Source: an uncultured bacterium (lineage in GTDB: Bacteria; Bacillota_I; Bacilli_A; RFN20; CAG-826). Taken from it: 44,330 bases of DNA. The notes beneath the pieces were generated by a model that ran no database searches, was not told where the DNA came from, and saw only the letters and a program-made list of their open reading frames with translations. Shown here piece after piece: positions 4,799-11,998 of the stretch. The position numbers and the translations under genes were made by a program. Location: the NCBI GenBank assembly GCA_949297055.1, contig CASFRI010000008.1:1-44330 (forward strand), in the 5' to 3' direction. Positions within the stretch are counted from its first letter, which is position 1, and each line of letters starts with the position of its first letter.

Positions 4799-6436
4799 TC
4801 ATGCACTAAAAGGGACAAAAGTTGCATCATTATATGAAAATGAAGTCGTTCCAATATTATAAATTTTTAAACCGACATTTTTAGCGGTCAAACTAAGACC
4901 ATAACTATCCCCACTCGCGTAGAATAATTGAAAATATTCCATCTCATAGTCGTAATTTAATCTAATATTAAAAGCAACTTTATTAATATCGATAATCTTA
5001 CTTTCTTCATCGAAGAATGGATAAAGTGGATCTAAACCTAATAAGCGACCACTCGCCTTATCTAGACCACCATAAAGGCCACCTTCTGTCGCATAAGCTG
5101 AATAACGATAAAAGAATAAATTTTGATTAAAATCGACTTGATTAAGAGCGTAGACATCGCTTGCGATACTTTCATTACTTAAACCATGTAGATAAGTGAC
5201 ATCATTTTCACTAATGACTTCTACCGGCATCAAACCTAAATCATCTATTTGAGCGTAAGTTTCAATCGTTTCTGGATTACCCGCTATGCTAAGATTTTTT
5301 AATATTTCAATGCCATCAGGCGTAACTTTCATTTGATGATTGATGTCTCCACCTTCACCTATCACTTCGATGTCGATAGTGTAATTTTTATTTGCTAAAG
5401 CTTCTAGCATGGCTGGAACCGCTATTTCTTGTTCTTCAGAAAGTGCGACAAGTTTTTCTTCAACGGGTGAACTTATCAATCGTGGAGCCCCTGTCTGGTG
5501 CTTAGAATTAAATGTACCTAACATTTCAAATTCAATCAAATCGAGCGTTACACCGTTACAACGTAATGTATCAAGAAAGCCTAAATCATCATAGGTAATA
5601 ACAATGTCTGAAATAAGAGCGACATTGCAATTATAAACAGCATTAAAGAATTTAACTTTTTTGTCATTTGAAGCTCTTATAAGCAATGTATTATCATCAG
5701 TGAAACTCATATCGCTAGAATTAAAATATTTAAATGGGGAAGAAGCCACCTCATCAAAGATGAGAGGATTTCCTAATTCATCCAAAATAACATCATTATG
5801 TAAGACGTTATTGCTATCTAAATAATTAGTAATTGCATAGCCATTTTCATCTGCGAAAAAAGAAGAAAATTCATCGAGAAAAACATAATTTAACAAAGGA
5901 ATTCCGTCGCGTAACAAAGTGTAAAAACTTACTCTTGAAACTTGTCTATGATACTGCTTATAATCGCGGTTATAGTAATAGGTATCGACGTAATATTGTT
6001 CGTTAGAGTAACCGCCGCTAGAGTATTCTCTCACAATAGCGGAGAACGCTAAGTCGTTAGTGAGCCCATCTAAGATATCGCTATAAGATGGATTAACAAC
6101 TATTTCTAATTTCGTTTCTAAAGTCGTTTTATTATTGTGCTCATCTCTTCCTTCTGTGGAAGCTGTTATGGTAGCTTTTCCTTTATGTAAGGCTTCAATA
6201 TTGCCGAAAATATCGATGCTTACAACATTGTAATTAGATGAATGCCAAGAAATATCAGAGATTGTTTTTTCTTCGTCATAGCATTTCAATCTTTGCACAT
6301 CGCCAATTTCTAAGTACATCGTCGATTGCCCTTCATCTATTATGATATTAGAAGGCAAATTCATCACGTCTTCATTAGAACAGCCAATGAGGCTAAACAA
6401 AATAATGGGGCATAATAAAAATTTTAATTTAGTCAT
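4799..6436 (-). CDS. Lipoprotein with N-terminal Ig-like (BIG2-type) domain
   Basis: 545 aa of unknown function. The signal peptide ends in a lipobox, LIGC, with the lipidated cysteine at residue 19. Residues about 30-115 look like one bacterial Ig-like (BIG2) domain: EIGDVQRLKC, then WHSSNYNVVSID and GKATITAS. The rest (about 120-545) has no motif I recognise; it is rich in Tyr, Asp and Asn and is probably mostly beta-strand. It is the last gene of a five-gene minus-strand cluster of exported proteins and overlaps the preceding gene by 8 nt. The SD (GGAGGGG, 6 nt before ATG) is strong. Expected on the outer face of the membrane. Confidence 0.85.
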   Translation of the reverse strand: MTKLKFLLCPIILFSLIGCSNEDVMNLPSNIIIDEGQSTMYLEIGDVQRLKCYDEEKTISDISWHSSNYNVVSIDIFGNIEALHKGKATITASTEGRDEHNNKTTLETKLEIVVNPSYSDILDGLTNDLAFSAIVREYSSGGYSNEQYYVDTYYYNRDYKQYHRQVSRVSFYTLLRDGIPLLNYVFLDEFSSFFADENGYAITNYLDSNNVLHNDVILDELGNPLIFDEVASSPFKYFNSSDMSFTDDNTLLIRASNDKKVKFFNAVYNCNVALISDIVITYDDLGFLDTLRCNGVTLDLIEFEMLGTFNSKHQTGAPRLISSPVEEKLVALSEEQEIAVPAMLEALANKNYTIDIEVIGEGGDINHQMKVTPDGIEILKNLSIAGNPETIETYAQIDDLGLMPVEVISENDVTYLHGLSNESIASDVYALNQVDFNQNLFFYRYSAYATEGGLYGGLDKASGRLLGLDPLYPFFDEESKIIDINKVAFNIRLNYDYEMEYFQLFYASGDSYGLSLTAKNVGLKIYNIGTTSFSYNDATFVPFSA

Positions 6437-10093: not shown

Positions 10094-11998
10094 TTAGAAA
10101 CTAATTCTAGTTGTTTCAACGTATGGTGTAGGATTACAAGCATTAAGATTATCACTAGAAAGAATTCCTCCACCAGTGATATTACCAAACTTTTCTCCCC
10201 AGCCTTGATGGTAATTCAAGTATTCTTGGAAATCGTTATAGTAATTGTTCGTGTAGAAAACATATCTATCTTTAGGAGCAACCGGTGCGCCACTATCCGC
10301 ATAATATTTAGAGTAGACAATTCTTGCTCCGCCTCTTTCGATACGAGTGCCATCATTATAAATTCTATTAGGTCTATTTGGATCTGCATCCGTTCCAGTG
10401 GTACCAATATCTACTTCATAGTATATTAAATTTCCGCCACTGCTAGAAATACCCGGCAAATCAGGCATATATGAAGCGTTTCCTTCAAATTCACCGCCAC
10501 TTAATCTAAGATATTTGCCCCAAGGTGAATCACTAGGTTTCGCGGTAGTGGATTCCTCATAATTTCTTGGTGCCTCTCCAAAAGCATAGATATAGGATGC
10601 AACATCTTCTAAAGTGATATAGGCACCACCATAATATATTTCATATATCTTATTTCCATAACAGTCGTAGAGATTGTAAATTGTATTAGAAACTTTTAAT
10701 TCGTATTCCATGTACATAGCTTTGTCGTTATGCGCTAAGTAGGCGTCTTTCCTATATTGATATTCGGCTATCGTTGGCTCTTGATCAGGCACTTCAAGAT
10801 CACCGTACATGTAGTCGTAAAGATAACGACTATAATCATCCTCGGGAGTGTTACATCTTTCATAATTATTATAAAAATCTTCTTCACTCATATCTTTGTA
10901 TAGATCTTCTGGTATGGGTACTTCTGGTTCATTTAAAAGTACTTCCACTTCTATACTATTGGACATATGGCCTAAGTCATCATATAGATAAAATGAAGAT
11001 TTTCCTAAAGCTAAAGCCACAACATGATGATTTTGAAAAGCATCTAATGAATATTCAAACATACCTTCTACTTCTGATTGACATTGTAAAGAGTCGTAAT
11101 CTAGTTCAATGAAAGTAGTAATAAAGATTTTAAAACCTCGATGCCAACCCATGATAGGTTCATAATGATTATGTTCGATCAAAAAGTCATAAATTTCTAA
11201 GGTAACAATGTTTGAAACAACATCATCGTAAGTTGCTTGAATAGTAACTGTTCCTCTTTTTAAAGGATTAATTGTCGTTCCATCAATTTCTATCAAGTCA
11301 TTACCGTCGATAATTTCATACGTTAAAACATCTTCATAATAGTAAGGGTCGGCAGTCGGTAACAATACTGCAAAACCACCTACACATACAACATCCTTTG
11401 ATAACGCTAGAGATAGGGATGTTAATGGTTCAGAAGAAACGATGACTTCAATGGTGTCGCTAGAGCCATTATCTAACGATAAAGTAATGGTGGTTGTTCC
11501 ATCTTTTAATCCACGAATCGTTACGCTATCGCCAAGCATATTTATCGCTTCCACTATTTCCGCATTAGAACTGATGAAAGAAACTTCGCCTTCATTATTT
11601 TTCGTTTCAAAGAATATTTGTGCTTCTTCTAGCATATGGATCTCAATTGGACCATCAGTAAGAATATCAATAGTCGCGGGTCTAGGAATGACATTGATTT
11701 CGATGCTATCGCTAACGTCATCTGAAGAAGCGCTAATGACGCTTTGACCGACATTTAAAGCAACGACGAGTCCATTTTCATCGACGCTTGCGACGTTAGG
11801 AACGCTAGATTCAAATGAAATAGGGCTAACGAGATTTTTACTCATTATATCTAACTGATAATTTTGGCCAACTTCCAAAGTAACTTCCTCTCCATTAGTG
11901 ATGCTAATGGATGGAGGAATAGGAACATCGCAAGAAGTGACGATAGGAAAAATGACGAAGGAGAATAAAGCGACGAATAATATATTAAATTTTTTCAT
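10094..11998 (-). CDS. Lipoprotein with three Ig-like domains and a barnase-like C-terminal domain
   Basis: 634 aa. The signal peptide has lipobox VTSC (C23). Three BIG2-like domains follow (about 30-104, 107-188, 190-270), each with the typical NGLVVALNVGQSVISA-like ending. The C-terminal domain (about 455-600) resembles bacterial guanyl-specific ribonucleases (barnase family): YITLEDVASYI...APRNY at its start, then YYEVDI with E528 matching barnase E73, R555-x3-R559-IVYS matching R83/R87, and FYTNNYYNDF where the catalytic H102 position is Y586. The general acid is thus replaced, so activity is doubtful. There is no SD; TAAAAT lies 6 nt upstream of the ATG. It is first gene of the exported cluster. 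The Ig domains probably extend the C-terminal domain from the cell surface. Confidence 0.82.
   Translation of the reverse strand: MKKFNILFVALFSFVIFPIVTSCDVPIPPSISITNGEEVTLEVGQNYQLDIMSKNLVSPISFESSVPNVASVDENGLVVALNVGQSVISASSDDVSDSIEINVIPRPATIDILTDGPIEIHMLEEAQIFFETKNNEGEVSFISSNAEIVEAINMLGDSVTIRGLKDGTTTITLSLDNGSSDTIEVIVSSEPLTSLSLALSKDVVCVGGFAVLLPTADPYYYEDVLTYEIIDGNDLIEIDGTTINPLKRGTVTIQATYDDVVSNIVTLEIYDFLIEHNHYEPIMGWHRGFKIFITTFIELDYDSLQCQSEVEGMFEYSLDAFQNHHVVALALGKSSFYLYDDLGHMSNSIEVEVLLNEPEVPIPEDLYKDMSEEDFYNNYERCNTPEDDYSRYLYDYMYGDLEVPDQEPTIAEYQYRKDAYLAHNDKAMYMEYELKVSNTIYNLYDCYGNKIYEIYYGGAYITLEDVASYIYAFGEAPRNYEESTTAKPSDSPWGKYLRLSGGEFEGNASYMPDLPGISSSGGNLIYYEVDIGTTGTDADPNRPNRIYNDGTRIERGGARIVYSKYYADSGAPVAPKDRYVFYTNNYYNDFQEYLNYHQGWGEKFGNITGGGILSSDNLNACNPTPYVETTRISF

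Follow-up and report, generated by a model that had tools for sequence, protein, structure and literature searches.

Barnase is among the best studied enzymes, and barnase folds are also used as toxin tips. The active-site residues of the family include a general base Glu (E73), two phosphate-binding arginines (Arg83 and Arg87), a general acid His (H102) and a Glu that recognises guanine (E60). Barnase H102A has been used as a catalytically inactive form of the enzyme (PMC5773518). In mycoplasmas, membrane nucleases serve the acquisition of nucleotides at the cell surface, and MslA is cited as a polynucleotide-binding lipoprotein (review PMC12115388).

Here we describe a surface lipoprotein with a C-terminal barnase-fold domain, encoded on a contig of 44,330 nt from an uncultured bacterium; this whole stretch of DNA is referred to as the window. 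The source assembly is a 1.06-Mb draft genome in 59 contigs that is 97.85% complete. What is new is a natural barnase that has lost its general acid, inside a widespread and poorly annotated family of surface-anchored proteins.

Layout of the lipoprotein and its barnase-fold domain

The features of the gene are collected in Table 1. A signal peptide is visible in the translation, as is the lipobox cysteine that the preliminary description had pointed out, and the residue numbers and codons it rested on are exact (the TAC codon corresponds to plus-strand positions 10243–10241). Judged from this Cys23 lipobox the protein is a surface lipoprotein. The same description counted three BIG2-type domains, of which Pfam recognised two, the whole protein scoring 39.7 bits against a curated cut-off of 22.8; the third, and a fourth, are likely Ig-like by eye and gave no Pfam match. 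The repeat pattern suggests that one or two Ig-like repeats are probably present beyond the two recognised Big_2 domains. The C-terminal domain comprises ∼250 residues.

Table 1. Features of the lipoprotein gene in the window.
Feature	Coordinates	Strand	Basis
Whole gene, 634-aa surface lipoprotein	10094..11998	-	ORF list and translation; intact, no internal stop
Signal peptide and lipobox	11930..11998	-	Lipidated Cys23 at 11930-11932, predicted from motif in sequence MKKFNILFVALFSFVIFPIVTSC
Big_2 Ig-like domain 1, residues 31-101	11696..11908	-	PF02368, E 4.9e-10 in whole protein, 6.8e-7 for segment alone
Big_2 Ig-like domain 2, about residues 105-192	11423..11686	-	PF02368, segment alone E 0.0011; second stretch in whole protein
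Probable further Ig-like repeats, about residues 192-360	10919..11425	-	Pattern by eye; segments gave no Pfam match
Family-specific extension preceding the barnase core, residues 387-450	10649..10840	-	Conserved in closer relatives
Barnase-fold core, residues 451-616	10151..10648	-	Barnase profile matches; AF2 model pLDDT 91.9; Foldseek barnase/binase
E528 = barnase E73 (general base), GAA	10415..10417	-	Glu in 187/187 distinct order-level sequences
R555 = R83, AGA	10334..10336	-	Arg in 187/187
R559 = R87, AGA	10322..10324	-	Arg in 187/187
Y586 at H102 place (general acid), TAC	10241..10243	-	His in 186/187; Tyr here only
Y587 = Y103	10238..10240	-	Tyr in 187/187
M511 at E60 place (guanine recognition loop), beside 3-residue deletion	10466..10468	-	107 close sequences: 99 Glu, 5 Gln, 2 Leu, 1 Met (here)
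T484 at probable K27 place, aligned one residue off barnase	10547..10549	-	Lys/Arg in 97/107; Thr also in nearest relative L003

The neighbors of the gene encode further lipoproteins and a putative cysteine peptidase. Five secreted or lipoprotein genes stand in a row on the minus strand between positions 4799 and 11998 of the window. The product of 7627–10059 matches DUF7689, the model for a Mycoplasma putative cysteine peptidase staying below its cut-off, and 4799–6436 encodes another Big_2 lipoprotein.

Direct Pfam and NCBIfam scans gave no barnase match for the window protein, and a single-sequence search of the PDB with it returned Ig-like and chance matches only. Family profiles, in turn, were searched against PDB sequences. 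A profile built from 27 sequences (A1) matched only barnase and binase constructs up to E = 1, with a best E-value of 3.5e-4. With a second profile, made from 123 core sequences (A2), the best barnase/binase E-value was 6.3e-7, and two RNase Sa-type chains ranked next at E 0.6–0.8. Checked individually against the Pfam ribonuclease profile PF00545, the window protein had no match of its own, but 15 of the 27 members of A1 did, the best at 5.2e-10.

The fold was examined with AF2 models. The model of the whole C-terminal part (247 residues; pLDDT 87.5) had no significant Foldseek match, RNase Sa coming first at a probability of 0.47. The barnase fold was resolved after this by trimming to the core (residues 451–616) and using a deeper alignment. 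The core model gave 16 Foldseek matches in the PDB at E ≤ 0.001, all of them barnase or binase constructs, with a probability of 1.00 and TM-scores (by target) of up to 0.67. As in barnase, a helix is followed by five strands. The barnase-like domain proposed in the preliminary description is therefore borne out by the family profiles, by the relatives that match PF00545 and by the modeled structure. The barnase pattern in the window protein is confirmed to be far beyond chance, and both homology and fold are established by computation.

Distribution of the family and its active-site residues

A single-sequence search with the C-terminal 248 residues was positive in 22 of 95 genomes. Relatives were detected in 90 of the 224 genomes of the GTDB family and in 115 of the 279 genomes of the order, and the core profile matched in 75 of 395 genomes drawn from the class. 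Named records with relatives are MAGs called Bacilli, Acholeplasmatales, Clostridia or Oscillospiraceae, many of them from gut samples; viral contigs contained neither a relative nor the Tyr-variant motif. The window's genome also encodes a second kind of barnase-like protein (L001, G000:C46:20088-23318; a 735-codon frame) with its His intact, and this is the only kind in the three sister species of the same genus. A surface-anchored barnase family without barstar is common, and poorly annotated, in small-genome gut Bacilli, and members also occur in some Clostridia.

When the family was aligned to its profile, the equivalents of E73, R83, R87 and Y103 were present in all 187 distinct sequences and that of H102 in 186, part of this set having been gathered with a DNA pattern that includes the histidine. 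In the subset obtained by whole-genome profile search, which is free of that pattern, His was found in 129 of 130 sequences. Apart from the window protein, all members of the order-level set have the full barnase catalytic set. The window protein retains the general base and both phosphate-binding arginines (E528, R555, R559) and has Tyr586 in place of the general acid, a substitution that the preliminary description had read correctly and that is unique among the 187 sequences. The guanine-recognising Glu is also absent by alignment, Met511 standing there beside a 3-residue deletion. Class-wide, the core profile yielded 228 sequences with His, one with Tyr (the window protein) and one with Leu, in a tandem-barnase protein; a second Tyr variant was sought in this set and none was found.

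The class-wide search also returned barnase-like proteins of other families (L289, L290, L291 and L294 in G354, G561, G602 and G390, and also L274, L285, L292 and L293). Several of these have two tandem barnase domains. They keep the Arg and mostly the His, have Ile, Thr, Ser, Gln, Lys or others at the catalytic E73 place, and in one domain have Leu at H102.

Seven active-site places were scored in 107 close sequences. No departure was seen in 95 of them, one in 11 and three in the window protein. Thr484 is common to the window protein and its nearest relative (L003); Met511 and Tyr586 do not occur in L003. These substitutions, like the conservation of the catalytic set in the relatives, are established computationally.

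The window gene lies on a long branch (0.60 vs. a median of 0.18) and its ORF is intact, which suggests that selection has probably maintained it over most of that period. We also considered relaxed selection over the whole domain. Among 97 close rows the window protein departed from the conserved columns more often than any other sequence (7 of 67); in the broader set of 107 rows other long branches had 7–8 departures and the window protein 4, and the argument was dropped. These 4 departures compare with about 2 expected, no extreme excess on a branch of this length.

Possible functions of the family and of this copy

The family most likely consists of surface RNA-scavenging RNases, judging from domain layout, conserved residues and gene content. 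Its members would be outward-facing, lipid-anchored RNases on a stalk that cut extracellular RNA, the pieces of which the cell would then import. In the 97.85% complete genome of the window no match to pyrB (aspartate carbamoyltransferase) was found, and searches for purF gave sub-threshold, glutaminase-type fragments only, which fits a need for nucleotides from outside. A search of the genome for nucleoside-binding Bmp proteins found none. In about 21 Clostridia loci, genes for a SurE 5′-nucleotidase (PF01975) and a DHH/DHHA1 (NrnA-like) protein lie within three genes of the barnase lipoprotein, all in one clade and on the strand opposite to the barnase gene; this neighborhood again fits nucleotide salvage. 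If so, RNA would be a nutrient of bacteria that apparently lack nucleotide synthesis of their own. In the Clostridia loci L129–L192 we also noticed several large secreted proteins near the barnase lipoprotein. One of them (L192_7) has a nuclease-like motif by reading; a truncated piece of it had no Pfam match.

For the copy in the window we favor, with moderate confidence, the reading that it belongs to such a scavenging family but has lost its cleavage activity or retains very little of it, and that it may only bind RNA. With Tyr586 and Met511 in place of the general acid and of the Glu that reads guanine, cleavage has most likely been lost to a large extent; the title of one PDB entry among the Foldseek matches likewise calls H102A barnase inactive. 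The domain would still fold and may bind RNA through its two arginines and the tyrosine. The protein may persist as an RNA binder on the cell surface or may be on its way out, and the second barnase-like protein of the genome, with its intact His, could do the cutting. The preliminary description had left two options, a binding-only fold or an enzyme with altered chemistry; the fold, the residues and the missing His all held up, and both options are still live.

The second of these would mean that the protein is still an RNase in which Tyr586 (or Arg559/Tyr587) protonates the leaving group, with a base preference changed by the replacement of E60 by Met. We regard this as unlikely. The pKa of a free Tyr is poor for the general-acid step, and the His is never replaced in 186 relatives; on the other hand, the equivalents of E73, R83, R87 and Y103 are all kept and the ORF has stayed intact despite the long branch. 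RelE, whose fold is distantly related to that of the microbial RNases, has Arg81 where the general acid His would stand, and its Tyr87 acts in catalysis (PMC2807027). The H102A form of barnase is regarded as catalytically inactive (PMC5773518). We are slightly more doubtful still that this is a natural surface RNase of barnase fold that cuts RNA with Tyr for the general-acid His and an altered base preference. It is very unlikely that Tyr586 is a consensus error of the metagenome assembly, or a rare allele, in a species that really has His. Such a change from CAC or CAT to TAC would take one or two bases at most, and a single copy of the species was compared. However, consensus errors are rare and one falling exactly on codon 586 would be improbable, and the same copy carries a second, independent active-site change (Met511 with the 3-residue deletion). 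A single consensus error thus cannot explain the state of this copy.

Presentation on an Ig stalk had also been likened to a contact-dependent effector or adhesin. This received no support: the lipobox is N-terminal, no toxin-delivery module was recognised, and the family, its catalytic residues all conserved, occurs throughout the order in genomes that lack barstar. The absence of a barstar-like immunity gene, which had been stated earlier, holds for the whole assembly of the window's genome, where barstar (PF01337) had no match; control genomes and one relative genome (G061) do match. The barstar of G061, the only one in the 58 genomes searched, lies directly downstream of a short lipoprotein barnase (L210, G061:C64:2600-4600), so a pair of this kind was within reach of the search. 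This arrangement, together with the use of barnase folds as toxin tips, speaks for an effector of the contact-dependent or polymorphic-toxin type whose immunity protein escaped recognition. Against it stand the lack of barstar in the window's genome and in 57 of the 58 genomes, the lack of a delivery module, the missing catalytic His, and 79 loci in which no small partner gene recurs beyond a 58-aa ORF found in four. We therefore consider a toxin role highly improbable. Under the preferred reading, a scavenging family with a copy that cleaves little or not at all, the natural loss of the His is a direct test of what the barnase fold can do without its general acid.

Comparison with known systems

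The window protein resembles barnase and binase (PF00545, guanyl-specific secreted RNases; PDB 1a2p and 1gou) in fold, in the order of its elements, in the residues corresponding to E73, R83, R87 and Y103 and in the signature VA.Y...F..P.NY. It differs from them in being lipid-anchored on Ig-like repeats, in its additional N-terminal extension and long loops, in the lack of a barstar and in the replacement of E60 by Met and of H102 by Tyr. Of the barnase-like surface lipoproteins of the same order (for example L003, L004 and L007), the nearest reach up to 58–59% identity over the C-terminal 247 residues. These lipoproteins share the layout of lipobox, Ig-like repeats, extension and barnase core, but all of them keep the catalytic His.

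The G061 protein (L210) is likewise a lipoprotein with a barnase core (hhalign probability 99.2). Unlike the window protein, it has the catalytic set complete and a barstar gene directly downstream, and a short Ser-rich linker takes the place of the Ig repeats. The membrane nucleases and nucleic-acid-binding lipoproteins of Mycoplasma are, as far as known, different proteins. They offer an analogy of role only, namely the acquisition of nucleotides at the surface of auxotrophic bacteria with small genomes.
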